54,159 nt of DNA, from IMG/VR virus record IMGVR_UViG_3300037541_000705, positions 1 to 54,159 of that record. One strand, given 5' to 3'. Made by a program: the position numbers and the translations under genes. Origin of the DNA: a virus. The notes beneath the pieces are model-generated. The model did no database searches. It was not told where the DNA came from and saw nothing but the letters and a program-made list of their open reading frames with translations. Positions 8,814-50,041 of the stretch are shown piece by piece; within the stretch, counting starts at the first letter, position 1; each line of letters starts with the position of its first letter.

Positions 8814-8814
8814 G

Positions 8815-9078
8815 TTATCTTGCCTTAGTATCAACCCATCCAATAAGCCCTTTATCTGGTAGCACTACCGATACTTGCGATCCGATTGGCAGTGTTGCAT
8901 TACCAATAAATCTAAAATACCTTAACGAGCCATCAGGGGCTTTAGCTGTGTATGAGGCTGTTTTGATATCGTATCCAGTCACCTCGCAGACAACAACGCT
9001 GTTATCCTGTTGCTTTTCTAGGGATAAGCGACGGGTTGCATTTGTTTCTAATTGCAGTCTCAAAGTATCTAAGGGCAT
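8815..9078 (-). CDS. Hypothetical virion-associated protein, 87 aa
   Basis: Beta-rich small protein (SVVVCEVTGYDIKTASYTAKAPDGSLRYFRFIGNATLPIGSQVSVVLP) that looks like a single OB- or SH3-like barrel. It is the last gene of the minus-strand tail-tip/fibre operon and overlaps the upstream gene by 10 bp, so a structural or assembly role at the tail tip is plausible. Confidence 0.6.
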   Translation of the reverse strand: MPLDTLRLQLETNATRRLSLEKQQDNSVVVCEVTGYDIKTASYTAKAPDGSLRYFRFIGNATLPIGSQVSVVLPDKGLIGWVDTKAR

Positions 9079-16644: not shown

Positions 16645-17091
16645 ATGAGTATCAAAATCAAATTCTCATTCGATGAATTGCGCCGCCGCGCCGCTAAGAT
16701 GCTTGATGTGCATCCCAGCTATATTGATAATGTATGCCCGTCTGAGGGTGGTACAAAGTTCTATGTGACTTACCGAGCTTGGAAAATCAGAGGCTACGGT
16801 TTGCATGGTGCAACATTCACAATTTGGCAATTCGTCGAGGCGTTGCCAATCGAAAATATGACGGGTAGCGTTGAGACTTTCTGGGATAAAGGGATTGATT
16901 CTGTTCTTGCTGTTTTGGGCTTGGATAAGTTTCCAAATAGTGAGAGGGAAATCAAATCTGCTTACCGCAAACAGGCGAAATTACATCACCCTGATACGGG
17001 CGGCGATCCTAACAAATTTCGTGAGGTGCAAATGGCTTATGAGACTGCGATCAATTTGTTGCCTGAGTTGAGAAGAGCATATGGAAAATGA
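16645..17091 (+). CDS. J-domain (DnaJ-like) protein, 148 aa
   Basis: The C-terminal half is a J-domain: helix II SEREIKSAYRKQAKLHHPD with the HPD tripeptide at residues 115-117, the loop TGGDP, then helix III FREVQMAYETAI. J-domains recruit and stimulate Hsp70/DnaK. The N-terminal 90 residues are unrelated to DnaJ and may bind the phage target delivered to host DnaK, for example in replication or virion assembly. ATG 16645 is chosen because the longer frame from 16528 runs inside the previous gene. Confidence 0.75.
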   Translation: MSIKIKFSFDELRRRAAKMLDVHPSYIDNVCPSEGGTKFYVTYRAWKIRGYGLHGATFTIWQFVEALPIENMTGSVETFWDKGIDSVLAVLGLDKFPNSEREIKSAYRKQAKLHHPDTGGDPNKFREVQMAYETAINLLPELRRAYGK

Positions 17092-17236
17092 GCAATTCGA
17101 CATCACCAAAGCCGTACCAAGGGCAAACCCAAAGCCCAAAGTACACAACCCGTTCCCCATCGATACGAGCGCATTAACCAAGCGCTTGATTCGGGAATAT
17201 TATCCTGAGTTAGAACATCGGTTGAATGGGGATTGA
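17081..17236 (+). CDS. Small coupled protein, 51 aa
   Basis: An ATG at 17081 lies inside the last codons of the J-domain gene, giving an 11-bp overlap. The product is basic, proline-rich in the middle (PRANPKPKVHNPFPIDTS) and helical at the end (ALTKRLIREYYPELEHRL). No family recognised; the coupling suggests it acts with the J-domain protein. Confidence 0.55.
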   Translation: MENEQFDITKAVPRANPKPKVHNPFPIDTSALTKRLIREYYPELEHRLNGD

Positions 17237-17292
17237 TAGTTTGGCTCAAACTTTTGAATAGTATTTTTTTACCCTAAACCTAACAACTAACA

Positions 17293-18108
17293 ATGAAATC
17301 AAGAACTGCTTCATTGCGGGATCTTACCCCTGCAACATTTTTAAAATATGAAAGGTTAAATTGTTTGATTGAAAATCGTGCTAACCAACATGCAACCCTT
17401 TTAGTTAATATCCTTTTTGAAAACAATATTTTTTCGTTGATATCAAGGGTTGACGATCCTATTTTGGTTAAATCTTCATACGACAGAGAAGGCGAAAGAT
17501 TAAACAAGGATGAAGTTTTTTTTAAAGGCTATGCTCTTTTTTGCTGTGGTGAAAACCTTGCTGTTTTTAAAAAACAAATGGATGTGCCATACAACTCTTT
17601 CAAGGGCTTCAATTATTTGCAAATAATTGAAGCCCTTGAATCAAGGCAAAAGTACAGTTTTGACCGATTCAATTATCGTATAGAACCTTTTACGGAGGGT
17701 TTACTGGACTACAGATCTAGAATTGCAAAGCATGTTCTTAATTGCCCTTACTGCTATGCAAAACTTTCTGAATCCGTAGACTTTTTAAGTTTTAAAAAGA
17801 TCGCGAAATCTATAAACCTTTTTGGCTCTAACAATAGTTGTGACAAAGGCTTCACTCAATCTGATTTTAATAAAGCGATCTCCGATCTTGAGTCGCAAAT
17901 TACTGAGTTAAAAGCTAAGCATCCAGAGTTTGTTCATGCCACTATATTAAAGCCAGTTAGAGAGCCTATACAGCTAAATATGGTGCGTCTAGATATGATA
18001 ACTGATGAAGATGAAGTCTCTGCTAATCCTGAAGAAACTATCTATGATCGCATGAAGGCTTTTGCCTCTGAAAATGGCATTGAAATTAAAACGATGCAAA
18101 CTGCTTAA
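17293..18108 (+). CDS. Hypothetical protein with internal 42-bp DNA palindrome, 271 aa
   Basis: Basic, soluble protein with a CPYC motif at about residues 153-156 and further cysteines; no family recognised. The codons for about residues 103-116 (SFKGFNYLQIIEAL) are written as a perfect 42-bp DNA palindrome (17599-17640). The gene is followed by a strong terminator. Confidence 0.65.
   Translation: MKSRTASLRDLTPATFLKYERLNCLIENRANQHATLLVNILFENNIFSLISRVDDPILVKSSYDREGERLNKDEVFFKGYALFCCGENLAVFKKQMDVPYNSFKGFNYLQIIEALESRQKYSFDRFNYRIEPFTEGLLDYRSRIAKHVLNCPYCYAKLSESVDFLSFKKIAKSINLFGSNNSCDKGFTQSDFNKAISDLESQITELKAKHPEFVHATILKPVREPIQLNMVRLDMITDEDEVSANPEETIYDRMKAFASENGIEIKTMQTA
17599..17640. repeat. Perfect 42-bp palindrome inside a coding region
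   Basis: The 21 bases 17599-17619 are the exact reverse complement of 17620-17640, with no spacer. In DNA it could extrude as a cruciform or bind a symmetric protein; in RNA it forms a 19- to 20-bp hairpin. Confidence 0.9.
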
Positions 18109-29321: not shown

Positions 29322-29591
29322 TTACTCCTTTGTTTTTGACTTGTAATTATGCACTTCCTTATACTTCTCAGGATGTGCCAACCTGTATCGTAAATCATAC
29401 TCAGCTTGAGTCATGGGCTTATCGCCTATTGTTTGACCTCCACGTTTGCGATCGCTGTCGGTCATGGTGACTGTTTTCCCTTCAGGAGTGAGACAGCCAC
29501 GCCTACAGCGATATTGTCGCGCCCCTGATGGTTTTTCACCGTTAAAGCACATCGGTTTATGGCAGTAGGGGCAGTCTGGACGGTTACTCAT
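29322..29591 (-). CDS. Zinc-ribbon protein, paralogue of the gene at 14016
   Basis: CPYC (residues 7-10) and YRCRRGC (about 27-33) form a zinc ribbon of the kind seen in phage and transposase accessory proteins. The downstream IGDKPMTQAEYDLRYRLAHPEK aligns with the C-terminus of the protein encoded at 14016. A related ribbon ends the 2H phosphoesterase at 1233. It overlaps the next gene by 8 bp. Confidence 0.65.
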   Translation of the reverse strand: MSNRPDCPYCHKPMCFNGEKPSGARQYRCRRGCLTPEGKTVTMTDSDRKRGGQTIGDKPMTQAEYDLRYRLAHPEKYKEVHNYKSKTKE

Positions 29592-29811
29592 GGTTTAGCA
29601 ACTCCTTTAACTCGCTTACTGTTTCCAATGCGTGCCAAATACCTTCAGACTGCCATGAGTACTCATAGCCATCATCAGTCATGCGTACAGATAAAATGTC
29701 GTCTTCCCACAAATCAAAAATGTACTCTTCGCCGATCTTGCCATCAACCTTATCAGGGTATAGCTCGGCATAGCGTTGTAGGAACGCTTGGATCATGAAT
29801 AATTTTTGCAT
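29584..29811 (-). CDS. Hypothetical protein, 75 aa
   Basis: Acidic protein with strands around IFDLWEDDILSVRMTDDGYEYSW and a helical C-terminus. No family recognised. Overlaps the zinc-ribbon gene by 8 bp, so probably co-translated with it. Confidence 0.55.
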   Translation of the reverse strand: MQKLFMIQAFLQRYAELYPDKVDGKIGEEYIFDLWEDDILSVRMTDDGYEYSWQSEGIWHALETVSELKELLNHE

Positions 29812-29876
29812 CGTCGTTACCTTTGTGAATGTTGATTGAGAGAGGGGCGGTTAAGCCCCTATGATGTGTGTGGTGT

Positions 29877-30251
29877 TTAAGAAACTTTTGAAGCCATTCT
29901 CGCTCTAGTCTGCGCCGCTGCGATTTTATTCCTTGCTTTTCTCGCTTTTTCGCCTCTTGATTTTTCGATCTGCTTTTCCATTTTTTCTCTACCAATCATT
30001 CGCAGGGACTCACGAACCATTGGGCATTGTGTTTTTGCCCATGTCGTCTCTTTGACTCTCAAAGGTTCTACACCTGACGCATACTCATCATAAGAGTTGT
30101 ATTCTCTAATTTCAGTAATTCTTCGGCGATATCCATCTCTTGCAGAATCGCGGTTATCCTCTTCAGCCATAATCCACATTTTGAAAAATTCAAAATTATC
30201 AGAACCAAGGAATACTGATCCGTTGTTTAACATTGCTACTGTGTAAGTCAT
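29877..30251 (-). CDS. Hypothetical protein, 124 aa
   Basis: The N-terminal part is alpha/beta; the C-terminal 40 residues are strongly basic (KMEKQIEKSRGEKARKARNKIAAAQTRARMA), which suggests nucleic-acid binding. First gene after the promoter at 30294-30323. Confidence 0.55.
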   Translation of the reverse strand: MTYTVAMLNNGSVFLGSDNFEFFKMWIMAEEDNRDSARDGYRRRITEIREYNSYDEYASGVEPLRVKETTWAKTQCPMVRESLRMIGREKMEKQIEKSRGEKARKARNKIAAAQTRARMASKVS

Positions 30252-37270: not shown

Positions 37271-37339
37271 ATTGGTAGCGAATCGCAAGGTTTGAAGGTG
37301 CGATCGCTTAATCCACATTACCTAGGTACATTAGGCAAC

Positions 37340-38131
37340 ATGAATAAAGATATTGTTACATTAGACCGCAACGGTTTTCAAGTAGAGTTTTCCAAAACCG
37401 AGCTTATGAGTTTAACTAAGCTTTGGAAGATGGCTGGCAGTCCACAAAGTCAAACCCCAAACAAGTGGAAGATTTTACCTGAAGCTAAAAGGCTTGTGAA
37501 GCAAATCTCAAAAGAAGATAAAGGCTTTAAATCTTCCTTTATGGAATCCAAGCGTGGTAAGGGCGGCGAAACTTTAGCGCACTACAAGATCGCTCTTGAA
37601 TATGCTGGCTATTTATCGGTTGAGTTTAAATCTTGGATGCTTGGCATTGTTGGTAGTTTTATTGAGTCTCCTGAAGATTTTGCTGCTGACATTCTGATTA
37701 ATTCTCATAACCGCGATCGGGTTGAGAGAGCTAAAAAGCGCGTCTTGGTTTCTGGCACTAACAAGGAAACTATGGAGCTAGCCAAGCTTGACGGCGCTAG
37801 TTATGCTGAAGTTCACAACAATCGCTACCGTGGTTTGTATCGCAAGAATGCGACTCAACTCAGAGAAGAAGCAGGGCTTAAAAAGTCTGAAACTCCCTTG
37901 GATCGCCTATCTGCTTATGACTTAAATCTAAACAGCTTGGCTAATCAGATGGCTTTGATGTCTGGTGATTCTGGAAAAGTTCTAGATGCGGCGATCGGCT
38001 TGCGACAATTGCATGAGCAAACTGTTGGTAAACCATTGGAACCAACATGGGAGGAAAAGCATTTACGCCCTAATCAGGCAAAAGCGATCGCCTATTCCAA
38101 TGAATATCAAACCGAGCTACCAGTAAGCTAA
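37340..38131 (+). CDS. KilA-N-like antirepressor protein, 263 aa
   Basis: N-terminal KilA-N-like region (FSKTELMSLTKLWKMAGSPQSQTPNKW ... AHYKIALEYAGYLSVEFKSWMLGIV), followed by a helical C-terminal domain with LDGASYAEVHNNRYRGLYRKNATQLREEAGL, as in phage antirepressors of the P63C/DUF type. ATG 37340 is used instead of TTG 37292. Together with 15166 and 47721 it makes three KilA-N-type proteins in this window. Confidence 0.65.
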   Translation: MNKDIVTLDRNGFQVEFSKTELMSLTKLWKMAGSPQSQTPNKWKILPEAKRLVKQISKEDKGFKSSFMESKRGKGGETLAHYKIALEYAGYLSVEFKSWMLGIVGSFIESPEDFAADILINSHNRDRVERAKKRVLVSGTNKETMELAKLDGASYAEVHNNRYRGLYRKNATQLREEAGLKKSETPLDRLSAYDLNLNSLANQMALMSGDSGKVLDAAIGLRQLHEQTVGKPLEPTWEEKHLRPNQAKAIAYSNEYQTELPVS

Positions 38132-38208: not shown

Positions 38209-38859
38209 ATGGCGAAAAGTAAGGCTAAGCTCTCAGATTTTCGTACCCAAGAAAGAAATCTGAATAAGCACCGCCCAAGGGGTATGGGACAGCTAAGCAA
38301 CATCATTTCCAAGGAAGGATGGCAGTCTGCAATTACAGTCGCAAATGACAATCAAGCTTTTAGTGGTAGCGCAAGATTAGAGACAGCACAAGAGCTATTT
38401 GGTGATGAAGCAGAGCCTATCGTATTTGATATTGATGGTACACGCCCTGTAATTCTTAGACGGGTTGATATTCCTACTGCTGATGATCCTAGAGCTATCA
38501 GGCTTGGCATTGCAGACAATCGCATTAATGAAGTTAACTATGATTTAGATATTGATTTACTGCAAGAAACAGCGCAAATAATCGACATTAGCGATCTATA
38601 TTTTGACGATGAACTCGCAAAATTAGCTGAGCAAAAGCAAGAAATCATCGACCATCAAGAGCCTGACTTTCTCAAGTTTTCAGATAACAATGACAGTTTA
38701 CCTGCATACGCAAGCGATCGCAGTGGTGGTACTAAGCAACCCATACCGATAGTCGTTGGCAGTCGGACTATGCAAAGATGGAATGAGTATAAGGAAAGTA
38801 TTGGCATAAAAAATGATACGGCTGCGTTTGAAATGCTGCTAGAATCTCAAGAGATCTAA
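38209..38859 (+). CDS. ParB/sulfiredoxin-fold nuclease-like protein, 216 aa
   Basis: Residues about 8-110 follow the ParB N-terminal pattern: LNKHRPRGMGQLSNIISKEGWQSAITV, then NQAFSGSARLETAQELFG in place of the G-x-R-R box, then a strand and DDPRAIRLGIADNRI. Phage ParB-like proteins act as nucleases, ATPases or CTPases and often sit near methyltransferase or terminase genes. Here it is the first gene of a module with a radical SAM enzyme. The C-terminal 80 residues are not assigned. Confidence 0.65.
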   Translation: MAKSKAKLSDFRTQERNLNKHRPRGMGQLSNIISKEGWQSAITVANDNQAFSGSARLETAQELFGDEAEPIVFDIDGTRPVILRRVDIPTADDPRAIRLGIADNRINEVNYDLDIDLLQETAQIIDISDLYFDDELAKLAEQKQEIIDHQEPDFLKFSDNNDSLPAYASDRSGGTKQPIPIVVGSRTMQRWNEYKESIGIKNDTAAFEMLLESQEI

Positions 38860-38869: not shown

Positions 38870-39238
38870 ATGGTGCGATCATTAGACAACAGTAATGGCG
38901 TTCAGTATTACGGCGGTAATGATCCCTCAAAAATGGGAGGTCGGATTAAGAAAGGCGGATCGGTGGGAGGGGGATCTAATTCAGTCGCTTCTCAGTTTGT
39001 GTCAGGTCAAAGCAAAAACCATACTGTTTTTTATAATGGGAAAGTTGTTAGCATGGATTATTTAGGTAAAAAACCTAAAGATGAATTTAAGTTTGCTGGC
39101 ATGAGAATTGCTGATAATTTATCCACAGGCGGAGTTGGTTTTATTAAAACTCCTAAAGGTGAATTTTATAAAGTTTCAAGCAGTAATAGATCCGCTAAAA
39201 AATCATCAAAAGAAGAAGTGTTAGCTTCTACAAAATAA
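38870..39238 (+). CDS. Small protein A sharing an N-terminal motif with the protein at 40464, 122 aa
   Basis: Begins MVRSLDNS and continues NGVQYYGGNDPSKMGGR-I-KKGG, the same 26-residue N-terminus as the protein on the other side of the radical SAM gene. A flexible Gly/Ser segment and a different C-terminal domain (HTVFYNGKVVSMDYLGKKPKDEF ...) follow. DNA copies differ mostly at third codon positions, so the motif is kept at protein level. It may be a recognition leader for the radical SAM enzyme or a targeting signal, for example into the capsid; GGRFKKGG also resembles the GRF motif of phage head proteins. Confidence 0.65.
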   Translation: MVRSLDNSNGVQYYGGNDPSKMGGRIKKGGSVGGGSNSVASQFVSGQSKNHTVFYNGKVVSMDYLGKKPKDEFKFAGMRIADNLSTGGVGFIKTPKGEFYKVSSSNRSAKKSSKEEVLASTK

Positions 39239-39241
39239 AAC

Positions 39242-40486
39242 ATGGACGGATTAAAGCCTCTATACGGCGGTTTACTCAAGATACCCGCGCCATTAGAACT
39301 TAGTGGTAATTGGTGCGCTCATGCTTGTCCTTATTGTTTTGCTAATCTTAATGCTCCTACTCGTACATTAGACGTTAAGGGTGTTTCAAGATTATTAGCT
39401 GATTACCAAAACAGAAACACCATTGAGGGATATTTACTGCGCGATGGCTATCCTGTAATTGTCAGTAATCATATAGACCCGTTTAGCGCCTCAAACTATC
39501 GTCAAATGATTCCTTTCATGCAGACCATGACTGAGCTTGGTATACCTTACTCAGTGCAAACTAAAGGTGGTAAGGGTTGGGAAAAGGTGCTTGAGTTTAT
39601 GCCGATTGGTGTTTGGTATGTCTCAATCTCATTCTCTGATGATGAAACACGCAAATCCATAGAGCCTAGCGCCCCACCATTAGAACATCGCTATGAGTTG
39701 TTAGATGCTTTGATCGCTAAAGGACACACGGTAATAGTTGGATGCAATCCATGCGAACCAGATTGGCTGTTAGACCCAATCCCATTTTTTGACAATCTAA
39801 AAGAAATTGGTGTATTTGGTACATGGATGGAGAATCTGCACATTAATACCAAGCAAAAACAGGTAATGCCCGAACGCGATCGCAAGCTGTTAGGAGAAGA
39901 CTTAATCAGCGATTGCCTTAAGAAGAAACATAGCGATCCGTACAGAAAAGAATTTGTAGAGATGTGTAGGGAATATTCACGATCAATAGGGTTAGAGAAT
40001 TACAGCATTGCTAACGGTAAGTATTCAAACTTTTTTGACGCTTACAAGATGTATCCGAAATTATTTCCAGTTGTCCAGCAATTTATTAATCGGTGCGCTA
40101 CGTTAAACCGTGAGTTTTTTACACAACGGGAATGGGTAGAATTTTTTACCCCATTGCTGCCAACGTTTGTTACATCGCAAAATTATCATTACATTGATAG
40201 CAATGTTAGGATGTGTCCTGAAAAGGCGTTAGGGTTTAAAGTACCTAAGAATCCAACATTTGAGACAATATTAAAATGCTCTTTGAAGTCTCATAACGTA
40301 CCTTTTCATCCAGTAAACAAAGCGGCTTTTAGCTATGCTGTAGATAGCAATGGTAACTATTTGCTAGATGATGTGGATAAATTGCCTATACTATGTTATG
40401 GCGCGGATGGGTGGACTCATACTATGATTGAGTATGATGATAACGAAATTAATGAGGTCGATTATGTTGGAATCATTAGACAATAG
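39242..40486 (+). CDS. Radical SAM enzyme (SPL-like), 414 aa
   Basis: The cluster motif C-x3-C-x2-C is present as CAHACPYC (C25, C29, C32) after LYGGLLKIPAPLELSG. It is followed by YLLRDGYPVIVSNHIDPF, then GIPYSVQTKGG and WYVSISFSD, the strand pattern of the radical SAM barrel in the spore photoproduct lyase/Rv2578c group. It binds a 4Fe-4S cluster and cleaves SAM to start radical chemistry. The substrate is unknown: DNA lesions are possible, but the flanking small proteins with identical N-termini suggest a protein substrate. It starts 3 bp after protein A and overlaps protein B by 23 bp. Confidence 0.75.
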   Translation: MDGLKPLYGGLLKIPAPLELSGNWCAHACPYCFANLNAPTRTLDVKGVSRLLADYQNRNTIEGYLLRDGYPVIVSNHIDPFSASNYRQMIPFMQTMTELGIPYSVQTKGGKGWEKVLEFMPIGVWYVSISFSDDETRKSIEPSAPPLEHRYELLDALIAKGHTVIVGCNPCEPDWLLDPIPFFDNLKEIGVFGTWMENLHINTKQKQVMPERDRKLLGEDLISDCLKKKHSDPYRKEFVEMCREYSRSIGLENYSIANGKYSNFFDAYKMYPKLFPVVQQFINRCATLNREFFTQREWVEFFTPLLPTFVTSQNYHYIDSNVRMCPEKALGFKVPKNPTFETILKCSLKSHNVPFHPVNKAAFSYAVDSNGNYLLDDVDKLPILCYGADGWTHTMIEYDDNEINEVDYVGIIRQ

Positions 40487-40817
40487 CAACGGTGTTCAGT
40501 ATTACGGTGGTAATGATCCCTCTAAGATGGGAGGTAGATTCAAGAAGGGCGGCGGTGGTGGAGGCTCTAGCGGTAGTGCTAAACGTAGCGCTGTAGGTCA
40601 GCGTAGTAGTCTTGAGTCTAGATTTGGAGCTAGAGCTGGCAATGTGGCTAAGCAGCAAGCGGTATTAAGAAACCCTAACTCTACTCAAGCGCAACGAGAT
40701 GTGGCTAAGCGTTTACTGCAAAGGAATACGGCTAACGCCACAACAGGTAGTGCTTTACTTGGTGTATCTGCTCAAGAGAGAGCAGCTAACCTTCGGGTTA
40801 ATCAACTATTAAGGTAA
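40464..40817 (+). CDS. Small protein B sharing the N-terminal motif of protein A, 117 aa
   Basis: Begins MLESLDNS, then NGVQYYGGNDPSKMGGR-F-KKGG, a Gly-rich hinge and a basic helical C-terminus (AKRSAVGQRSSLESRFGARAGNVAKQQAVL ... SAQERAANLRVNQLL). The start at 40464 is set by GAGGT and by alignment with protein A. Overlap with the radical SAM gene suggests coupled translation. The C-terminus is unrelated to protein A, which makes the shared N-terminus the functional part to explain. Confidence 0.65.
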   Translation: MLESLDNSNGVQYYGGNDPSKMGGRFKKGGGGGGSSGSAKRSAVGQRSSLESRFGARAGNVAKQQAVLRNPNSTQAQRDVAKRLLQRNTANATTGSALLGVSAQERAANLRVNQLLR

Positions 40818-40890: not shown

Positions 40891-41571
40891 ATGGCTGCAC
40901 CAACAAAACATGATTGGGTAAAAATTAGTAAGGAATACATAGAAGCGCCTAGCGATGATTTGCGCCCTTCATTGGTAGCCTTGGCATCAAAATATAATGT
41001 CAGTATTAAATACATTGAGCAGAAATGCTCAAAAGAAAAATGGGTAGAGCAATCCAAGATATTTCTGAGGCGCGTATCTCAAGAATCGAAGCAAGAGAAA
41101 GTGTCAAGCCTAGCAGGGGAGCAAACCAAGTTTGATGCTGATATCTTGACGGTTGCAAGGGCATTGCAAGGGCAAATCATTGGACATTTGAATGAAGCTA
41201 AGGTCAATAAAACACTGTTAGCAACTAAAGATATAAGCCTGTTGTCTGGCTCTCTATCGACAATCCAACGCATCGGACGGACAGCATTAGACCTTGATTC
41301 ATGGACACCTGACAAAATCGTAAATGAGGCATTAAAACTTGGCTACCTTCTCACCGATCCTCGAACTCTTACCAGCGACACAGGCTCGGATGGAAAGAGC
41401 TTGGGAAAAGGTAGAGACTCAGATAGCACAGAAACAAGCACAGACGCAATCCCATTTGATTCCGTCATGGCAGGAGTTGCAGAAATCAAACCAACCATTA
41501 TTCCTGCCGCCTCCCGAAATCTTGAAGATATCCTTGCTACCAAAGCAAGCGATAGCGTTCAAGACTCTTGA
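40891..41571 (+). CDS. terS: Terminase small subunit, 226 aa
   Basis: N-terminal helix-turn-helix region (DDLRPSLVALASKYNVSIKYIEQKCSKEKWVEQSKIF) of the type found in small terminases, then a central helical region, and a disordered Ser/Asp-rich tail that overlaps the terL frame. The position directly before terL supports the call. Small terminases bind the packaging site and load the large subunit. Confidence 0.7.
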   Translation: MAAPTKHDWVKISKEYIEAPSDDLRPSLVALASKYNVSIKYIEQKCSKEKWVEQSKIFLRRVSQESKQEKVSSLAGEQTKFDADILTVARALQGQIIGHLNEAKVNKTLLATKDISLLSGSLSTIQRIGRTALDLDSWTPDKIVNEALKLGYLLTDPRTLTSDTGSDGKSLGKGRDSDSTETSTDAIPFDSVMAGVAEIKPTIIPAASRNLEDILATKASDSVQDS

Positions 41572-42796
41572 TGTTCCTTATGTTGGTGTTGTTAGTGGTT
41601 ACGGGGGCGGCAAAACCTACCTTTTGGCTAGGAAAGGTTTACTTCATGCGTATATCAATGCAATCCCTACTAAAAAGGGTTGTGCATTGGCATTGTACGA
41701 GCCTGTAGATGAGATGATCGAAAAGCTCTTAGTACCAGAATTAGATGAGATTTTAGATGCATCAGGGCTTAAATATACTCTTAGAGCGTCAGCACCCCGC
41801 AAATATACGATCGACTTCCCACATGGTCGGGCGGTAATTTATCTCAACAGCTTCGAGAATTGGCGACGTATTGTAGGCGGTAACTATTGCTTTGCGGGTG
41901 TTGATGAAATTGATACGGTACAACGCAAAATATTAGATCTCAGTTGGAAGAAATTAGTAGGACGGGTGCGCGTAGGACATTGCAATCAAATATTTTGTAC
42001 TACTACTCCTGAGGGCTTTAACTTTGCCTACGACTTTTTTGGTTCGCCAGAATCAATTAATAAAAGCGATCGCGTATTAATAAATCTCAGTACATTAGAA
42101 AATCCATTTACGACTGATGACTATATCCGATCGCTTTACGAAAACTACCCACCAAATTTAATCGATGCGTATGTGCATGGTCAATTCGTAAATCTTGCAT
42201 CACTGACTGCTTATTATGCCTTTGATCGCCATCGCAATAACTCAAATGAAACAGTGCAGCCTAATGAGAGATTGCATATAGGTCAAGATTTTAACGTAGG
42301 CAAAATGGCGAGTGTTGTATATGTCCAAAGAGGGCAGAACTATCATGCTGTCGATGAACTTTGGGGGATGCATGATACATCACACACGATTGAGACAATT
42401 AATAATAAATATCAAAATCATAGTAAATATTTATATCCTGATGTATCAGGTAATCAGCGCCATACATCAGCTACAGCATCACAAACAGATTTAAGCTTAT
42501 TTGGTGCGGCGGGTTATCAAATTGTTAGAGGTACGACTAACCCCGCAATTAAGGATCGGGTTAATGCCATGAATACGGGTTTTTTAAATGCATTAGGAGA
42601 ATCGCACTTATATGTAAATGTAAAGCGGTGTCCTAATCTTACAAGATGCTTAGAGCAGCAACCATTGGGAGATGATGGCAAGCCCGAAAAGAAAAAAGAT
42701 CTTGATCACTTACCAGAGGCGGCGGGTTATGCTGCTTATAGATTATTACCAATTAGAGCAGGATCAGGATTCGGTACTAGTCGGGCGCGTGGGTAG
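41339..42796 (+). CDS. terL: Terminase large subunit, 485 aa
   Basis: ATPase motor and nuclease for DNA packaging. Visible are the adenine-binding LLPKQ at about 67-70, Walker A GYGGGKTY at 87-94, Walker B FAGVDE at 185-190, the coupling motif TTTPEG at 221-226, and the start of the RNase H-fold nuclease at HIGQDFNVGKMASVVY (about 311-326). The frame overlaps terS by over 200 bp. TTG 41339 has GAGG 9 bases upstream; ATG 41390 is the alternative, without ribosome binding site. Confidence 0.85.
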   Translation: MATFSPILELLPATQARMERAWEKVETQIAQKQAQTQSHLIPSWQELQKSNQPLFLPPPEILKISLLPKQAIAFKTLDVPYVGVVSGYGGGKTYLLARKGLLHAYINAIPTKKGCALALYEPVDEMIEKLLVPELDEILDASGLKYTLRASAPRKYTIDFPHGRAVIYLNSFENWRRIVGGNYCFAGVDEIDTVQRKILDLSWKKLVGRVRVGHCNQIFCTTTPEGFNFAYDFFGSPESINKSDRVLINLSTLENPFTTDDYIRSLYENYPPNLIDAYVHGQFVNLASLTAYYAFDRHRNNSNETVQPNERLHIGQDFNVGKMASVVYVQRGQNYHAVDELWGMHDTSHTIETINNKYQNHSKYLYPDVSGNQRHTSATASQTDLSLFGAAGYQIVRGTTNPAIKDRVNAMNTGFLNALGESHLYVNVKRCPNLTRCLEQQPLGDDGKPEKKKDLDHLPEAAGYAAYRLLPIRAGSGFGTSRARG

Positions 42797-42970
42797 TGTA
42801 TCTGTTGCTTTAGTTACCGTATCCTTGCTAATCGTAATCGACTCAAGCGCACTACGCGATCGCAAATCTTTGGGGACAACAACGCCTAACTTCTTAAGAT
42901 TAGCTCTAATCTCAGCTACTTTGCCACTATTAGCATGTGAAATAATTGCTAAATGTTTTTTTATAGACAT
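42764..42970 (-). CDS. Small hypothetical protein on the opposite strand, 68 aa
   Basis: Fills the 200-bp gap between terL and portal on the minus strand, MSIKKHLAIISHANSGKVAEIRANLKKLGVVVPKDLR..., with a basic helical N-terminal half and a Thr/Ser-rich tail. Codon use looks normal and a HIP1 site is included, but there is no homology I recognise. It may be antisense control or not real. Confidence 0.4.
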   Translation of the reverse strand: MSIKKHLAIISHANSGKVAEIRANLKKLGVVVPKDLRSRSALESITISKDTVTKATDTLPTRPTSTES

Positions 42971-43000
42971 ATAATAAAAACAAATCAATACTTATAGATT

Positions 43001-44563
43001 ATGTCGGAAATTGAAATCATTCAACCTAATGAAGCGTTTACATGGCGCTCCAATAAATTAGGTGAGAATAATAAAGCTAGCCCAAACTATAAACACCCTG
43101 ATTATATTGAATATCAATATGATGTAGAGCGTTGCGAAGACTTCTATGAGGGGCGTAGAGCGTGGATATCAGGACGTTATTACAGCAATTTTGACACAAT
43201 TAAGCTACAGGAATATCTACCTAAGAACCCTGCTGAAGAAACCGAAGAGTATTTTGATCGGGCGCGACAAACTCTGTTTCATAACTTTTTCCGTCCATCG
43301 GTTGACATGTTTGCTGCATTGATAAGCAAATTTGACCTTACAGACAATGTAAGTGAATCAATACTTATCAATCAAAGCAATATTGACCTTAAGGGATCTG
43401 ACTTAATCAGCTTCAAAACTGATGCAGATACGTGGGCATTACGTGATGGCTTTGCGGTAATAGTCGTCAGCTATCCAGAGAATGCGATCGCTAATCCTAG
43501 ACCATACTTAAACTTAATTGAACGTGATGACCTGATTAATTGGGATTTCACCTATGACGAAAGCGGCGCTGAAAAAATGACGCTAGCTGTTATTAAGCGT
43601 GAAGAAACCGAAAAGATTAATCAGTTTGCAAGTGAAGAAATTGAGACAAGATGGGTCTATTCTTTGGATAAAAACGGCTTTGTAACTACTGAGAAGTATT
43701 ACAAGAGTATTGAAAAATCAAAGCCTAGTCGTGGTAAAAAGACTCAAGAGTTAGAACTTTGGATTAGCTACGATCCGCCCCTAATTTTACGCGATGCAAA
43801 TCAGCAGCCATTGACCGAGATTCCGATTGTGATTTACTCAGTAAGCGATCGCGATGCTATCTGCTCAGCTCCGCCCCTGCTAGATTTACTTGAAAAAGTT
43901 AAATGCCATTACCAGAATTACTCTAGCTATCAGCGCACAATCTATAAGTTACAGCCAACCTATAAACGCAAATGGGCTGACTTTATCCCAGATAATCCGC
44001 CCTCACTGGTGATTGGTGGGAGCTTAGCAATCGAATGCTCTAACGGCTCTGATGTTGGCGTTTTGCAGATTGACCCATCCGCAGTAGAACCTATGCGTCA
44101 AATGCTTTCAGATTTGCGTGCAGAAATCAAAGCAGAGGCTTTATCCTTCTTGGGACAAGGATCGGTGCAGCAAACTGATGATGAAATCGCCTTGAAAATG
44201 GCGCAAGGTAAAGCCTCATTACGCAAATTTGCACTAAGGCAAAAGAGCTTATGGCAAACTATTTTTAGCTATTGGGATAGATGGACAGGAGTAGAACCTA
44301 CTGATGCGAGTATTGACGTGGATATCAATGTACTTGATAAGCCAGTCACTCCTCAAGAAGTGCAAGTGGTACTTGATGCTGTAGCCACTGGTACTATGGA
44401 CGCTGACACGGGATCGGCTAAACTAAATCAGTTGCGATGGTTGCCTGAGGGGCTAAAACTTAGTGCGATCGCGCCGCCGCAAAGTATTCCTCAAACTAAT
44501 AAAGTGATGATTAATAAGGTTGACGATTCAGAAGATGATAATGATGATGAGGTGCAATCATGA
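43001..44563 (+). CDS. Portal protein (DUF4055-like), 520 aa
   Basis: Large helical/beta protein between terL and the adaptor/scaffold genes, with YQYDVERCEDFYEG near the N-terminus, a central FHNFFRPSVDMFAALISKFDL and AEALSFLGQGSVQQTDDEIALKMAQGKASLRKFA in the stem/crown region, as in DUF4055 portals. The portal forms the dodecameric DNA channel at one capsid vertex. The C-terminus is very acidic. Confidence 0.75.
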   Translation: MSEIEIIQPNEAFTWRSNKLGENNKASPNYKHPDYIEYQYDVERCEDFYEGRRAWISGRYYSNFDTIKLQEYLPKNPAEETEEYFDRARQTLFHNFFRPSVDMFAALISKFDLTDNVSESILINQSNIDLKGSDLISFKTDADTWALRDGFAVIVVSYPENAIANPRPYLNLIERDDLINWDFTYDESGAEKMTLAVIKREETEKINQFASEEIETRWVYSLDKNGFVTTEKYYKSIEKSKPSRGKKTQELELWISYDPPLILRDANQQPLTEIPIVIYSVSDRDAICSAPPLLDLLEKVKCHYQNYSSYQRTIYKLQPTYKRKWADFIPDNPPSLVIGGSLAIECSNGSDVGVLQIDPSAVEPMRQMLSDLRAEIKAEALSFLGQGSVQQTDDEIALKMAQGKASLRKFALRQKSLWQTIFSYWDRWTGVEPTDASIDVDINVLDKPVTPQEVQVVLDAVATGTMDADTGSAKLNQLRWLPEGLKLSAIAPPQSIPQTNKVMINKVDDSEDDNDDEVQS

Positions 44564-44931
44564 GTACATGGACAGCTACCGATGTCGCAAACATCAAAAC
44601 AATATTCAACCTTGAATATAAATATGTGCAACGCATCGAGGAATCTCTTACAGATTTTGAAAATCAATATGGTGCAACTGCGATCGCTGATTTGCAAACC
44701 AAAATCAATGAGGCGATCGCCCTGAAAGCAACCATCGCAGGAATAGAGCAAAGTGCAGATTTTGGGGTTACAAGTCAATCCGTACCCTCGTTTTATTCTT
44801 TTACTCGCAAGGATGGCACTGAGGTAAGCGGCTATCGCAATGCCTATGACAGCCTCAAGCAAACGATAAGCAACGAGCTTAGATTGCAAGACGTTGCACG
44901 AATTAATACAACTAGAATTATTAGAGCTTAG
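44560..44931 (+). CDS. Putative head-tail adaptor, 123 aa
   Basis: Helical protein overlapping the portal stop by 4 bp (ATGA). Size, helical content and location between portal and scaffold fit a connector/adaptor protein. No strong family signature. Confidence 0.5.
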   Translation: MSTWTATDVANIKTIFNLEYKYVQRIEESLTDFENQYGATAIADLQTKINEAIALKATIAGIEQSADFGVTSQSVPSFYSFTRKDGTEVSGYRNAYDSLKQTISNELRLQDVARINTTRIIRA

Positions 44932-44939
44932 GAGAATTT

Positions 44940-45713
44940 ATGCGATTTCATTGGAATCATTATTTTTATCAATCTGAAACTACCGACGGTGACACAGGCG
45001 GGGGTGCTGATAATCCATTGGGCCCAAAGGGAGAAAAAGCTTTAGAAGCAACCAAACAGAAAGCGCGTGAACTCGAAAAACAACTTGCGGAAGAGCGTGA
45101 GAAAAATAAAAGATTTGAGGGTATCGACCTAGCCAAAGTTGAGGAGGCTCTCAAATTTCAACAAGAAGCGGCGATCCGTGAGGCTGAAGCAAAAGCCAAT
45201 ACAGAAGAAGCCCGCAAACTTGAAAGAGAACAAGCGGCTGCTGAGAAGAAACGTTTGCAAGCCGAAAAAGAGCAAGCTGAAAAGGAGAAACTAGCAGCAA
45301 GGCAAGAGTTAACTGAAACACGTATCGATGCAGCGATCGCTCTTAACTTGGCTAACACTGGTATCAAACCTCAGTACACTGGCTTACTATCCAAGGATCA
45401 GGAGTTTCGTGGTCAGCTAGCCTATATGACCAAAGCCGCCGATGGTGTAGATAACGACGGGATCTATGTTGTCGATAAGTCTGGCGATCCTCGCTATCAT
45501 CCAGATGATCGCAATAAGTATCTACCAATTGACCTTTGGATTGAGACTGAGATCGCCAAGAAATATCCTGATATGTTTGTTGCGCGTGTCGGGACTGGTG
45601 ATGGCTTAAGCGGTAGACGTGGCAAGCGTGGCGGCGGTCTAGATATTGAAGCACTTGGCAAAATGAGTCCAACACAACGAGCCGAAGAGGCAAGACGAAT
45701 GAATTTAAGATAA
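44940..45713 (+). CDS. Scaffolding protein, 257 aa
   Basis: Residues about 25-130 form a long charged coiled coil (KGEKALEATKQKARELEKQL ... AAAEKKRLQAEKEQAEKEKL) typical of phage scaffolds, followed by a globular region and a short Arg-rich C-terminus which often binds the capsid protein. It comes before the major capsid gene, though here separated by a 2.9-kb insertion. Confidence 0.7.
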   Translation: MRFHWNHYFYQSETTDGDTGGGADNPLGPKGEKALEATKQKARELEKQLAEEREKNKRFEGIDLAKVEEALKFQQEAAIREAEAKANTEEARKLEREQAAAEKKRLQAEKEQAEKEKLAARQELTETRIDAAIALNLANTGIKPQYTGLLSKDQEFRGQLAYMTKAADGVDNDGIYVVDKSGDPRYHPDDRNKYLPIDLWIETEIAKKYPDMFVARVGTGDGLSGRRGKRGGGLDIEALGKMSPTQRAEEARRMNLR

Positions 45714-45715
45714 TC

Positions 45716-45749
45716 AACAAAAAAGGAGCTGTTACGCTCCTTTTTTGTT
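45716..45749. terminator. Bidirectional terminator
   Basis: AACAAAAAAGGAGC (45716-45729) pairs with GCTCCTTTTTTGTT (45736-45749) around a 6-base loop. It ends the first head operon and, on the other strand, the methyltransferase transcript. Confidence 0.9.
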
Positions 45750-45753
45750 TGGC

Positions 45754-46554
45754 TCAAAATAATGTTAGCTGCCCTTTTGGCGCTGGTTTGGGCTTCTTGG
45801 TTTTTACAGGTGCAAACGGATCATGATTGGCTATTCGATCGCGCATCACCTCAAAATAGTGCCGATCTTTTTCAATGCAGATATAGTTTCGATTGGTGTT
45901 TATGGCGGCGATCGCTAATGTGCCACTCCCTGCGGTGTTGTCTAAGATTAGTTCGCCTTCTTGGGTGTAGGTTTTGATTAGGTATTCGATAAGTTGGGTA
46001 GGTTTCTGTGTGGGATGGGTTAATCCGCTATTATGTTTTGGCTTATTGAACTTAACAATCGTTTTGGGATACCTGAATGTTGTTAGGTTTTGACTTGAGT
46101 TTTTTACGAATCTACTGCCAGATGTCCCTAAAACAGAATTTTTCCCTTGTGTATTGGAAACAAAACCAGCGTCCCACATTTCAGGGTTATACGTTGTCCT
46201 TCCTTCGCAAAATACCGAAATATTCTCATGGTATTTTAACGGCTGGACTTTAGCTAATGCAGGATTACTTGGGGCATCCTTCTCCCAAATCCACTCATAC
46301 TTAAACCACTTAGGATTAGACATCACAAGCGCACTGGTAAAAGGCTGCGAGCCAAAAAGACAAATCGCGCCATTAGGCTTAATGATTCGCTTGTACTGTT
46401 CCCATAGGCGATCAAAGGGAATGACTACATCCCACTTGCAAGCAGTGATTCCAAATGGGAGATCCGCGATGATGCAGTCGATACTTTTATCTGCAATATC
46501 CTTCATTACCTCTAGGCAATCACCATGAATAATAGAGTTGGGAGCGATCGCCAT
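45754..46554 (-). CDS. DNA N4/N6 (beta-class) methyltransferase with C-terminal clamp motif, 266 aa
   Basis: The catalytic motif IV is ADLPFG (30-35) and the SAM-binding motif I is LDNTAGSGT near residues 205-215, in the order of beta-class adenine-N6 or cytosine-N4 methyltransferases. The protein ends in KGQLTLF, which fits the beta-sliding-clamp binding consensus QL[SD]LF, so it may follow the replication fork. The partner HNH gene overlaps its start (TAATG), making the pair a possible restriction-modification or self-protection unit. Confidence 0.8.
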   Translation of the reverse strand: MAIAPNSIIHGDCLEVMKDIADKSIDCIIADLPFGITACKWDVVIPFDRLWEQYKRIIKPNGAICLFGSQPFTSALVMSNPKWFKYEWIWEKDAPSNPALAKVQPLKYHENISVFCEGRTTYNPEMWDAGFVSNTQGKNSVLGTSGSRFVKNSSQNLTTFRYPKTIVKFNKPKHNSGLTHPTQKPTQLIEYLIKTYTQEGELILDNTAGSGTLAIAAINTNRNYICIEKDRHYFEVMRDRIANHDPFAPVKTKKPKPAPKGQLTLF

Positions 46555-47321
46555 TAGCTTAAACCTCTACTAAAAATACACATTTGACTGTCAGATTTAT
46601 TCCTGTTCTTTTTAATTGACTTTACGCTTGTATCATCCGTTAGGTAATAACCAATATTAGCTTTTACCTTTTTCCAGTCTTCAGGACTCATATCAGCCTT
46701 AGCTCTATTCTCAAACCATGTCAGGAATTGTAAGTTACACAAATCAAAAGTACCGCCCAAAGCTTTTGGCACGATATGATCAATAGAAGGCATCAGCCAT
46801 TTATCTTTGTCATTTAGAATCCATTTTGAATACACCTTATTGAATTGATCGTCATAGTAAAATTTTTCAATAAAAGCAGTGTACTTTTGTAGGTCAAAAT
46901 GCTTTCTATGTCTTGAAATCACCCTGTTTAGAAATTTAAGCTTTTCAATATCTTCAAAGCTATGCAACCATTCATTGCTTACTTCATGGAGTAAATGAGT
47001 CTCCATGTTCCTAACAAGTTTTTCTTCAGAGGTATTGTAGACGCGAGTTTTCTTAGAGATCTTGGCATCATGAAAGCCTTTCTCGGCTAATCGTCTTCGA
47101 GATTCACCTATCTTCCGTTTGTGTTCATCAGATAAAGGCTTTTTAATACGCTTACCATCTGCTACAAAACCATATTCATTAACTCGGCGCTGGATAAAAT
47201 GGTGATTGGTATTGAATTGATCCGCAATCCTTCTAACACCCCATTTCTCTACCTCGTATAATCTTTGGATCTCATTAATATCTGCTTCTGTTAAAACTAT
47301 TGGCGCTCTTCTGTCTATCAT
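46554..47321 (-). CDS. HNH endonuclease with N-terminal HTH, 255 aa
   Basis: N-terminal HTH (EADINEIQRLYEVEKWGVRRIADQFNTN) and a middle NUMOD-like basic region (PLSDEHKRKIGESRRR) are followed by a C-terminal HNH domain with SIDHIVPKALGGTFDLCNLQFLTWFENRAKAD: paired His, Asn, and a following Asn/Lys. The start at 47321 follows AAGAGGT. It could be a homing endonuclease or the nuclease of an R-M pair with the overlapping methyltransferase. Confidence 0.7.
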   Translation of the reverse strand: MIDRRAPIVLTEADINEIQRLYEVEKWGVRRIADQFNTNHHFIQRRVNEYGFVADGKRIKKPLSDEHKRKIGESRRRLAEKGFHDAKISKKTRVYNTSEEKLVRNMETHLLHEVSNEWLHSFEDIEKLKFLNRVISRHRKHFDLQKYTAFIEKFYYDDQFNKVYSKWILNDKDKWLMPSIDHIVPKALGGTFDLCNLQFLTWFENRAKADMSPEDWKKVKANIGYYLTDDTSVKSIKKNRNKSDSQMCIFSRGLS

Positions 47322-47364
47322 CTCAAACCTCTTGCCTATATCCCATATACTAACATGGATAAAC

Positions 47365-47520
47365 ATGGATAAAGCAATAAAACAAGAGTATTTGGGATTA
47401 TATTACGCTATTAGGCGCAATCTGCCCTACGGTCAATCCCTCAATATTGTTAATTACATTCATGTTTATAATTCTAAAGCAATCGCCACGACAAACAGCA
47501 ACAACGAGCCGCAACTATAA
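47365..47520 (+). CDS. Doubtful small ORF, 51 aa
   Basis: The only frame in the 144-bp gap between the HNH start and the small membrane gene. The predicted product MDKAIKQEYLGLYYAIRRNLPYGQ... has a plausible composition, but the ORF overlaps the minus-strand gene at 47466 and its start lies in a 10-bp tandem repeat (AACATGGATA twice, about 47352-47371). Confidence 0.25.
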   Translation: MDKAIKQEYLGLYYAIRRNLPYGQSLNIVNYIHVYNSKAIATTNSNNEPQL

Positions 47521-47609
47521 GCAAGGGCATAGCGAGGTGATATAAATCCTAGCGCGATCGTTGAGAGACAGCCGACCATTGACAATGCTGAGAGAATACC
47601 TTTAATCAT
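47466..47609 (-). CDS. Small two-helix membrane protein, 47 aa
   Basis: MIKGILSALSMVGCLSTIALGF and YALAYSCGSLLLFVVAIAL are two hydrophobic helices joined by a short turn. It fits a holin or a membrane toxin in size and topology. Located between the HNH gene and the KilA-N gene on the minus strand. Confidence 0.45.
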   Translation of the reverse strand: MIKGILSALSMVGCLSTIALGFISPRYALAYSCGSLLLFVVAIALEL

Positions 47610-47720
47610 TTTGGTTTTATCGCTCAATCCCTTTATTGTAAAGCGTTTTGCGATATAATATAGAAATACCCCGCGATGCTGAAACATCCGAGGCGTGATC
47701 AACCTGATATATAGGCTAAT

Positions 47721-48437
47721 ATGACTAATCTTATCAAACATTCGTACAACGGCGCGATTATCTCCCAAGAATCCGATGGCTATGTTTCGCTTACTGATAT
47801 GGCGAAAACTCACAATAGATTGGTTGCTGATTATCTGAGAACTGATACCACTAAAGCTTATTTACAAGCGCTTTCTTTGGATATGGGAATTCCCATATCG
47901 GCTCTAGTCAACACTTTCAAGGGCGGTAAAGGGAAACAAGGGACATGGGCACATCCTGACATTGCGATCGATTTCGCTCAATGGTGCAGCCCCACTTTCA
48001 AGGTTTGGGCTAATCGTGTTTTGCGTGGAGTGATTACTCAAGAAAAACCAGAACCCAAAAAAGCGATCGCCCATTATTCAGATCGCTGTGCAGACATCCG
48101 AAAGAATTTGGTAAAGACAAAAGGTCATTGGTGTGTCATTGAGAAGTGCAATCACCTTTTGTTGGAGGTTGAGAAAGCTGGTTATCCCATTGATAAGTTC
48201 GATCTGTTAGATTCGAGCGTAGGGCGGCGCTATGCACAATACCGCCGTGAGATTGGCTACTCAGAGCCTACGCAGTCAGCGCACTATCAGCTACCACATT
48301 GCCCTCATCCTGTAACGATCGCTTGCTATCCAAGCAGTGAGCTTGGTATTTTCTCTGATTGGCTTGAAGGTATTTATGAAGAGCGATATCTCAATAAATA
48401 TCTGCAAGATAAGTACGGGAAACTGGCAAAAGTTTAA
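47721..48437 (+). CDS. KilA-N domain protein, 238 aa
   Basis: Residues about 3-110 match KilA-N closely and resemble the protein at 15166 (MTNLIKHSYNGAIISQESDGYVSLTDMAKTHN ... GTWAHPDIAIDFAQWCSPTFKVWANRVL). The C-terminal domain is different (CADIRKNLVKTKGHWCVIEKCNHLLLEVEKAG ...) and is a known partner domain of KilA-N in cyanobacterial proteins. TATAAT near 47655-47660 may be its -10 box. An unusual place for a regulator, between scaffold and capsid genes. Confidence 0.75.
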   Translation: MTNLIKHSYNGAIISQESDGYVSLTDMAKTHNRLVADYLRTDTTKAYLQALSLDMGIPISALVNTFKGGKGKQGTWAHPDIAIDFAQWCSPTFKVWANRVLRGVITQEKPEPKKAIAHYSDRCADIRKNLVKTKGHWCVIEKCNHLLLEVEKAGYPIDKFDLLDSSVGRRYAQYRREIGYSEPTQSAHYQLPHCPHPVTIACYPSSELGIFSDWLEGIYEERYLNKYLQDKYGKLAKV

Positions 48438-48462
48438 ATCTGTGCTATTTTATGAATAACTG

Positions 48463-48508
48463 ATCAAATAACTTTTGCTTATCGCAATGTTTGCAAAAGT
48501 TATTTGAT
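48463..48508 (+). promoter_or_regulatory. 16-bp hairpin in the capsid mRNA leader region
   Basis: ATCAAATAACTTTTGC (48463-48478) pairs perfectly with 48493-48508 around a 14-base loop, with no T-run after it. It lies between the KilA-N gene and the capsid start at 48606, so it may act as a stabiliser, a processing site, or a protein-binding operator rather than a terminator. Confidence 0.6.
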
Positions 48509-48605
48509 ACTAATAAAAGAATTTTTCGCAACGAATTTCTTTGATTTAGTGAGGCGCAATGCCAGCAGAAGGTATTGCAAATCATTAGATATAAAGAGAA
48601 AAAAG

Positions 48606-49538
48606 ATGGCATTAACCCTTACAGAAGCCGCAAAGATTGCGCTTAATGAAGGCAAAGTATTTGAATCGGCAATTATTGAGCAGTTCGCTAGCTCTAGCGG
48701 AATCCTCGAAAATATTCCCTTTGTGGATATCGCAGGTAATGCATATAGCTACAACAGAGAAGAAGCGCTTCCTGGTATCGGTTTTCGCGGTGTAAACGAA
48801 GGGTATGACGAATCGGTAGGCGTTGTTAACCCTGTAACCGAAACACTGTCTATCTTAGGCGGTGATCTTGATGTTGATAAATTCGTTATCGACACAATGG
48901 GCGTAGGTGTTCGCTCTCAGCATGAAATGATGAAGGTTCGGGCCCTAGCTTTGGCGTGGACAAAAGAATTTATCCAAGGCGATACAGCTACCAATATTAA
49001 AGCCTATGACGGATTGCGTAAGCGCTTGACTGGTACTCAGTTAATCGACAATGGCGCTAGTTCTGGTGGTGATGTACTGAGCTTGGAACGTTTGGACGCA
49101 ACCATTGACGAGGTGACTAATCCTACTCACATCATCATGAATAAGACCATGCGACGGGTGCTGACTAGCGCTGCTCGTAATACGTCTGTGGGTGGTTACA
49201 TCACCTATGAACTCGATTCTTTCGGTCGTAAGATTGCGTTTTACAACGATCTGCCAATTATCGTTTTAGATCAAGATGGCTCTAAATCTCAGATCTTGCC
49301 CTTCACTGAGGCGGCGGCTTCTGGTACAGCTCAAACCACTTCTATCTACGTTGTTTCGTTTGACACTATGGGAGTACATGGTTTACAAAATGGCGGTATG
49401 CAAATCCGCGATTTAGGTGAGCTAGATACTAAACCCGTATTTCGTACCCGTGTTGAGCATTACCAATCGATCGCCATTAAGGACGGTCAGGCTGCTGCTC
49501 GTTTGCGTTACATCAAGTCTGGCGCTGCTGTCGCTTAA
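48606..49538 (+). CDS. Major capsid protein, 310 aa
   Basis: MALTLTEAAKIALNEGKVFESAIIEQFASSS opens a protein with the HK97-fold order: N-arm, E-loop region (EEALPGIGFRGVNEGYDES), spine helix (LAWTKEFIQGD), A domain (MNKTMRRVLTSAARNTSVG) and the closing VFRTRVEHYQSIAIKDGQAAARLRYI, as in many siphophage capsids. ATG 48606 with AGAGAAAAAAG before it is chosen over a longer frame from 48504 that covers the leader hairpin. Confidence 0.85.
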   Translation: MALTLTEAAKIALNEGKVFESAIIEQFASSSGILENIPFVDIAGNAYSYNREEALPGIGFRGVNEGYDESVGVVNPVTETLSILGGDLDVDKFVIDTMGVGVRSQHEMMKVRALALAWTKEFIQGDTATNIKAYDGLRKRLTGTQLIDNGASSGGDVLSLERLDATIDEVTNPTHIIMNKTMRRVLTSAARNTSVGGYITYELDSFGRKIAFYNDLPIIVLDQDGSKSQILPFTEAAASGTAQTTSIYVVSFDTMGVHGLQNGGMQIRDLGELDTKPVFRTRVEHYQSIAIKDGQAAARLRYIKSGAAVA

Positions 49539-49539
49539 T

Positions 49540-49565
49540 TTAATCAGGGGATATCCCCTGATTAA
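49540..49565. repeat. Perfect 26-bp palindrome after the capsid gene
   Basis: TTAATCAGGGGAT is followed directly by its complement ATCCCCTGATTAA, two bases after the capsid stop. No T-run. As an RNA hairpin it could protect the 3' end of the abundant capsid mRNA or weaken readthrough into the decoration gene. Confidence 0.75.
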
Positions 49566-49609
49566 TAATTCACAATGCTTTCAAGTATTTTTAAACAGGT
49601 AAAAACCTA

Positions 49610-50041
49610 ATGGCTACAACATTTTCAACTATTGCAGATCGGCGCGTTCGTGGTACTTACGACGCAGCGCTAGCCCTTCGCACCCCTGAAGCAGCTGCTA
49701 TGTCTGCTACTACTTCTACCACTCGAATCGCCTTTGCTTGCCGCAAAATCGAAGCTTTCAAGGTTTGCTTTGATATTGAAGCTTACACAAGCTACAGCGC
49801 TGGTACTGCTGAATGGACGATCGCAGTCGATGTATCTGCTACCGTAGGCGGCTCTAGTACCGTAATCGGTACTATTCTCCCTGCTCAATTAGCTGGTGCT
49901 GCTGGCGAACTAGAGATCGTATTTGGCGGCGCTGAAATTGCTGCTAAATTGGCGACTGCTGAAGCGATCGGCTTGGTTTGCACCAAGACTGGCTCCCCAG
50001 GAAACTTGACCCTATCCGCTTGGATTGTACCTGTTCAGTAA
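49610..50041 (+). CDS. Putative capsid decoration/head protein, 143 aa
   Basis: Beta-rich Ala/Thr-rich protein (IEAYTSYSAGTAEWTIAVDVSATVGGSSTVIGTILPAQL) in the usual place of decoration or cement proteins right after the capsid gene. No family recognised. Confidence 0.55.
   Translation: MATTFSTIADRRVRGTYDAALALRTPEAAAMSATTSTTRIAFACRKIEAFKVCFDIEAYTSYSAGTAEWTIAVDVSATVGGSSTVIGTILPAQLAGAAGELEIVFGGAEIAAKLATAEAIGLVCTKTGSPGNLTLSAWIVPVQ

Follow-up and report, generated by a model that had tools for sequence, protein, structure and literature searches.

The stretch of DNA analysed here (the window) is a single virus record of 54,159 bases. Its genes of interest lie in the order ParB-like protein, protein A, radical SAM enzyme (rSAM), protein B, probable terminase small subunit (TerS), TerL and portal, as listed below.

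38209-38859, + strand: ParB-like protein, 216 aa (phrog_620/phrog_498, E 5.5e-11/3e-12)
38870-39238, + strand: protein A, 122 aa, open reading frame
38870-38959, + strand: N-terminal tag of protein A, with the 27-residue core SLDNS...KKGG from 38879
38960-39238, + strand: linker and cargo of protein A; basic, pI 9.9, no Cys, no known family
39242-40486, + strand: rSAM, 414 aa, CxxxCxxC at residues 25-32
40464-40817, + strand: protein B, 117 aa, open reading frame
40464-40553, + strand: N-terminal tag of protein B, with the 27-residue core from 40473
40554-40817, + strand: linker and cargo of protein B; pI 12, no Cys, no known family
40891-41571, + strand: probable TerS (weak PHROG matches, precedes TerL, DNA conserved in relatives)
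41339-42796: TerL open reading frame
43001-44563: portal

The stop codon of A is separated from the ATG of rSAM by 3 nucleotides (nt), and the first 23 nt of B overlap the rSAM gene, which agrees with the coupling overlap described in an earlier reading of the letters alone (the sequence-only reading). Shine-Dalgarno-like sequences precede the ATG of A and of B (aggtgattattATG, gaggtcgattATG). With 67 occurrences in the window against 0.4 expected, the cyanobacterial HIP1 word GCGATCGC marks the host as very probably a cyanobacterium. A and rSAM are in the same frame with TAA-AAC alone between them (A-TAA-AAC-ATG; window 39236-39244), and the junction is the same in the relatives G003 and G004; read-through of the stop would yield an A–rSAM fusion. 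Elsewhere in the window, the open reading frame at 37292-38131 contains a KilA-N domain, and two paralogous proteins (15166-16002 and 47721-48437, 33% over 176 aa) lie far apart.

Conservation and distribution of the first tag

The N-terminus common to A and B, tag 1, is SLDNSNGVQYYGGNDPSKMGGR[IF]KKGG; it starts at residue 4 of both proteins, and 26 of its 27 positions are identical. A Gly/Ser-rich stretch follows in both, and then unrelated sequence, the two cargos giving no cross-match to each other. The DNA of the two tags differs at 13 of 81 bases, with 12 synonymous changes and one non-synonymous change (pS 0.70, pN 0.016). When the 12 tags on seven contigs were pooled, pS was 0.64 and pN 0.049, and the ratio of 0.08 was similar to the pN/pS of the rSAM gene (0.10). 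The stretch Tyr-Tyr-Gly-Gly-Asn-Asp-Pro was invariant. Tag 1 is under purifying selection, with synonymous change near saturation. The shared N-terminus, the divergence behind it and the selection on the peptide had all been proposed in the sequence-only reading, and all three hold.

A tag-1 profile, run on six-frame translations of all tag-1 contigs, found the 12 tags at E < 1e-18 and no third copy in the window or its relatives (best non-tag E 0.83). Chance or artefact is excluded by this profile together with the 12 synonymous changes and one non-synonymous change. In the tag-1 group, the tags of A and B within a genome are no closer in DNA than tags between genomes, indicating that their likeness is not maintained by gene conversion; this comparison and the synonymous pattern exclude a DNA repeat or gene conversion.

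Six close relatives of rSAM were found in IMG/VR (89-100% identical, one partial) and none in sequenced genomes with two peptide patterns. Plasmids and isolated phages held distant matches only, and the pattern CPYCFAN gave no further relatives. Tag 1 occurs with this rSAM in 7 of 7 contigs (IMG/VR), always flanking it, and these contigs are related by descent, so that the co-occurrence does not represent seven independent events. Three DNA patterns for tag 1 recovered the same seven contigs and otherwise unrelated proteins, tag 1 without rSAM was found nowhere in the viral and genome collections scanned, and one tag-1 pattern gave a single, unrelated match over 84,980 genomes. The motif is thus not widespread without a radical SAM neighbour, but tied to rSAM, as its first description implied.

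Several candidate matches to tag 1 were rejected. The match in Lachnospiraceae (L027) lies in an unrelated frame, the YYGGNDP matches (L009, L012, L014-L016, L018, L021 and L022) belong to other proteins or frames, and the KM.GRFKKG matches (L023-L026) correspond to no such in-frame protein. In two marine phage contigs, near position 5.2 kb of L012 and near 1 kb of L021, a small open reading frame, MGYIVKTKGTKGQTYYGGNDPKKES..., lies directly upstream of a terminase-like gene; its likeness to tag 1 is probably due to chance, and no rSAM was seen in either contig.

Five mutually unrelated types of cargo, of about 50-110 residues, follow tag 1. All are basic (pI 9.8-12), and Cys is absent from all 12 tag-1 proteins. 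A and B gave no match in Pfam or PHROGs, including no ParB/Srx-type domain. The order is A-rSAM-B in the window, G002, G003 and G004, and rSAM-B in G001; G005 has two tagged genes upstream of rSAM and zero downstream, and in G006, whose contig is truncated within rSAM, B is present. The cargo at the A position is wholly exchanged between relatives, and for one tagged cargo of G005 (16887-17225) a homologue lacking the tag is present in G004 (16779-17330; L031 1780-2331; 34%, E 7e-8). Short N-terminal tag, glycine-rich linker and interchangeable cargo form a modular set.

The radical SAM enzyme

The cluster motif of rSAM is C25-x3-C29-x2-C32. In the family alignment these three Cys were invariant in 20 homologues and no other Cys was, indicating one cluster, no SPASM-type set and no extra Cys like that of spore photoproduct lyase (SPL). 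PF04055 matched the core over its curated cut-off (E 6e-7), and the enzyme belongs to the radical SAM superfamily. The best curated profile was that of the Rv2578c family (NF038135, E 1.6e-6), where 27.4 bits against a cut-off of 430 bits place rSAM outside the family; it also falls outside SPL, lacking a conserved catalytic Cys besides the cluster ligands. The label 'SPL-type' given in the sequence-only reading is therefore correct at the level of the superfamily, but not for SPL proper, in view of the missing fourth invariant Cys and the best profile being Rv2578c. With SPL and Rv2578c-like enzymes rSAM shares the CxxxCxxC core, weak profile matches and the presence of SPL among its Foldseek matches, and it differs from them in having no invariant extra Cys as hydrogen donor, a distinct C-terminal half and a phage operon of ParB-like–rSAM–terminase. 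Profiles of anti-phage defence gave no match.

In an AlphaFold2 model built on 20 diverse sequences (pLDDT 86.9, pTM 0.87), the best PDB fold match by Foldseek was pyruvate formate-lyase activating enzyme with peptide (E 2.5e-6, TM 0.66 by target), and the next were SkfB, viperin, HydE, SPL and SuiB. The matches of this predicted structure cover the rSAM core and all score alike, and a substrate class is not indicated by them. The best phage family for the core was phrog_13321 (E 3.4e-5 with the window enzyme, down to 7.7e-22 with a relative), a match confined to about 150-200 residues of the core, and to a family with no described function or tag.

A classical RiPP, in which the tag is a cleaved leader and the remainder a peptide matured by rSAM, would suit the leader-like constant N-terminus, the variable sequence behind it and the coupling to an rSAM gene. 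Precursors with radical SAM maturases such as SkfB and SuiB, both among the fold matches, resemble the present case in their conserved N-terminal peptide, their adjacent or overlapping rSAM gene and the occurrence of more than one tagged gene per enzyme. The RiPP-like character proposed in the sequence-only reading is nevertheless very unlikely. There is no Cys in the 12 tagged proteins and no core residue common to them, the cargos are protein-sized, with folded domains among them and, in one case, a homologue that lacks the tag, no RiPP maturase profile appeared among the NCBIfam matches of rSAM, no further invariant Cys is available for a SPASM cluster, and most of the enzyme family is without tagged genes. 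The modifiable core shared by RiPP precursors is absent here, and a modification within the tag itself is possible.

A second tag in a sister clade

A wider phage rSAM family was retrieved with the pattern GN-x-C-x3-C-x-Y-C-[FY]-A, its members being 24-39% identical over the full length. The nearest members (L071, L084, L090 and L093, in G007-G010), about 50% identical in the core, are accompanied by tagged proteins with a different tag, tag 2 (MAGQDW[RK]KNKKGFMVNPEGKTARQVRAEKRQAAKASGGGGG), which has no detectable homology to tag 1 (hhalign probability 0.1). The tag-2 pattern was found in no contig without rSAM; the variant in G010 falls outside the pattern. G007 has a tag-2 gene on each side of rSAM with different cargos. 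G009 has four tag-2 genes in all, of which three are within the head-tail cluster; three of the four are over 20 kb from rSAM on the linear contig. In G008 and in G010 there is a single tag-2 gene, oriented divergently from rSAM.

In G007 (L112) the tag-2 copies at 3741-4508 and 5849-6130 are identical in DNA and carry different cargos, indicating recent transfer of the tag onto a new protein. Duplication at the DNA level therefore occurs, as it would if the tag were a translated DNA element such as a recombination or packaging site. This explanation is hardly credible, being largely refuted by near-saturated synonymous change with a conserved protein; within-genome copies in the tag-1 group, moreover, are no closer than between-genome copies.

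In a maximum-likelihood tree the tagged rSAMs fell on one side of a branch with support of 93/91, just under the usual threshold. Residues such as S312, Q313, Y315 and H316 are invariant in tagged rSAMs and rare in others; judged from the alignment, they may mark a tag-reading region or reflect mere descent. In one clade the rSAM block precedes TerS, and in the other it lies between TerL and the portal-side genes, indicating that the position of the tagged genes follows rSAM. Random placement of tagged genes among the genes would put them around rSAM with a chance of about 2e-4 for the window and 1.5e-3 for G007. The two tags together account for 19 tagged genes; 15 of these are at most 300 nt away from rSAM and a sixteenth at most 400 nt.

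The cargos of tag 2 reach several hundred residues in part of the group. That of G009 7984-9039 carries a ParB_N domain (PF02195, E 2.6e-16), and that of G007 3741-4508 matches PF02195 below the cut-off (E 2.4e-4). A third is similar to phrog_21 'portal protein' over positions 1008-1351 of that family (E 5.5e-65), and also, at about 36%, to part of a 2563-aa late-region protein of Prochlorococcus phage P-SCSP1u, a protein that a term search of the P-SCSP1u structure paper did not bring up. DdrB-like ParB domains, which belong to the polyvalent phage proteins, are reported to be head-packaged in phage P1 and predicted to be so in others (Iyer et al. 2017, PMC5512222).

Untagged relatives, phage heads and the role of the tags

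In most untagged relatives a ParB-like gene lies directly upstream of rSAM, and the order ParB-like – rSAM – TerS – TerL occurs in very different untagged phages (GC 31-66%), and is conserved in the diverse uncultured phages L099, L076, L082, L092, L094, L080, L070/L077 and L183. At E 1e-6, queries with L076 and L099 retrieved no record of an isolated phage. The whole contigs of the more distant rSAM members examined gave no N-terminal tag shared between proteins. Among the N-terminal matches rejected as tags, that of G013 looks like a false upstream start and that of G014 like an integrase-type domain, and the remaining ones like unrelated proteins.

The gene order of the untagged relatives indicates that the older role of rSAM was probably independent of any tag and may concern DNA. 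It would also fit separate functions, in which rSAM is a ParB-partnered DNA-modifying enzyme and tagged accessory genes gather at its site while the tag serves another partner. Beside the rSAM block of G001, a Mom-family protein (L028:7874-8518, PF25680 E 8.8e-47) lies between two ParB-like genes, an N6/N4 methylase adjoins ParB in L094, relatives of rSAM show weak matches to 'DNA repair photolyase', and phage proteins with ParB domains occur linked to, or fused with, enzymes that modify DNA (PMC12783734). An insertion-prone site around rSAM could mimic a link between tag and enzyme. We nevertheless regard separate functions as improbable, since two clades have unrelated tags around rSAM despite the shifted block, at the low chance values given above, and the tag-bearing rSAMs have conserved residues of their own.

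The main rival of a tag that docks to the rSAM block is a virion-loading tag, which would sort small accessory proteins into the particle without need of the enzyme, rSAM being otherwise occupied. Capsid targeting, also raised in the sequence-only reading, is possible. Its main support is that ParB/DdrB-type domains, found among the tag-2 cargos, are reported or predicted to be packaged in heads (PMC5512222). Unrelated, basic and exchangeable cargos behind one N-terminus, the three tag-2 genes in the head-tail cluster of G009 and the tag-2 cargo matching phrog_21 and part of the P-SCSP1u late protein are in line with it as well. The polyvalent proteins of that report are fused directly to portal, MuF or peptidase domains, whereas a short tag and linker are used here, and the window cargos A and B have no ParB-type domain.

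Internal proteins of T4 carry an N-terminal capsid-targeting sequence. They are alike in being small, basic and otherwise variable proteins of one phage with a short common N-terminus; they are unlike tag 1 in sequence, and here a Gly-rich linker is present and no prohead cleavage site was identified in the tagged proteins. Tag 1, unlike theirs, stands beside rSAM and stays constant while head proteins change. A comparison of the window with three long relatives (75-80 kb) shows rSAM to be the best conserved of the proteins they share, at 97% in each. Identity is 32-33% for the portal and the major head protein and 27% for the scaffold where it is detected at all, and TerL of the long relatives is of another type. 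(In a comparison of window 41339-50041 with G001, G003 and G004, the head module was swapped and the tail genes were about 60-95% identical.) Because tag 1 was kept despite the exchange of the head, a signal fitted to one particular head is disfavoured, although a conserved head binding surface remains conceivable. Virion loading also leaves unexplained why the tags occur only with this rSAM, and mostly beside it, and on balance we consider it a serious but unlikely alternative.

The reading we prefer, tentatively, is that unrelated proteins dock through the tag to a single partner in the ParB-like–rSAM–TerS block, most likely rSAM itself. Docking would include a more specific proposal, that rSAM reads the tag and covalently modifies the tag or the protein behind it, whatever the cargo; this we hold to be rather doubtful, and a modification, if made, would probably lie within the tag, at the invariant Tyr-Tyr-Gly-Gly-Asn-Asp-Pro. 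The enzyme-read tag of the sequence-only reading survives to this extent, on the strict tie of tag to rSAM and the recurrence of the layout with an unrelated tag, but not as a RiPP in the usual sense. From gene neighbourhood, the original role of rSAM, with the ParB-like protein beside the terminase, may have been DNA modification, and the tags may be a later recruitment around it. Given their basic or ParB/DdrB-like nature, the cargos may act on the DNA of the phage, either while it is packaged or once it has been delivered.

By position, tag and rSAM are strongly tied: most tagged genes are closely linked to rSAM, and the arrangement is seen again in phages whose block has a different place with respect to terminase and portal. 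The tie is made weaker by the lack of likeness between the two tags, by the three G009 tagged genes far from rSAM and by the common ancestry of the tag-1 contigs. Non-homologous tags would be odd if they were read by sister enzymes, and it counts against docking that the distant phages examined have members of the rSAM family and no N-terminal tag shared between proteins.

In the open-access literature we found no phage rSAM described as paired with proteins linked solely by a short N-terminal tag and linker. An enzyme-modified tag would be a previously undescribed phage system for protein tagging or modification, in which sister phages use a different tag with the same enzyme family, and a tag read by rSAM would offer a genetically portable handle for modifying unrelated cargos. 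If the tag is instead a virion signal, cyanophages would have in it a short loading tag that can be transferred. In both cases it is 27 residues long, and nature already provides cargo swaps. Many uncultured phages share the ParB-like–rSAM–terminase order, which offers another lead, to unknown phage DNA or protein modification. In one contig of the family, G012 (in L172), a second, smaller radical SAM-like protein with CxxxCxxC is encoded at 29578-30231, about 2 kb upstream of rSAM, and is 26% identical to the rSAM of the same phage.
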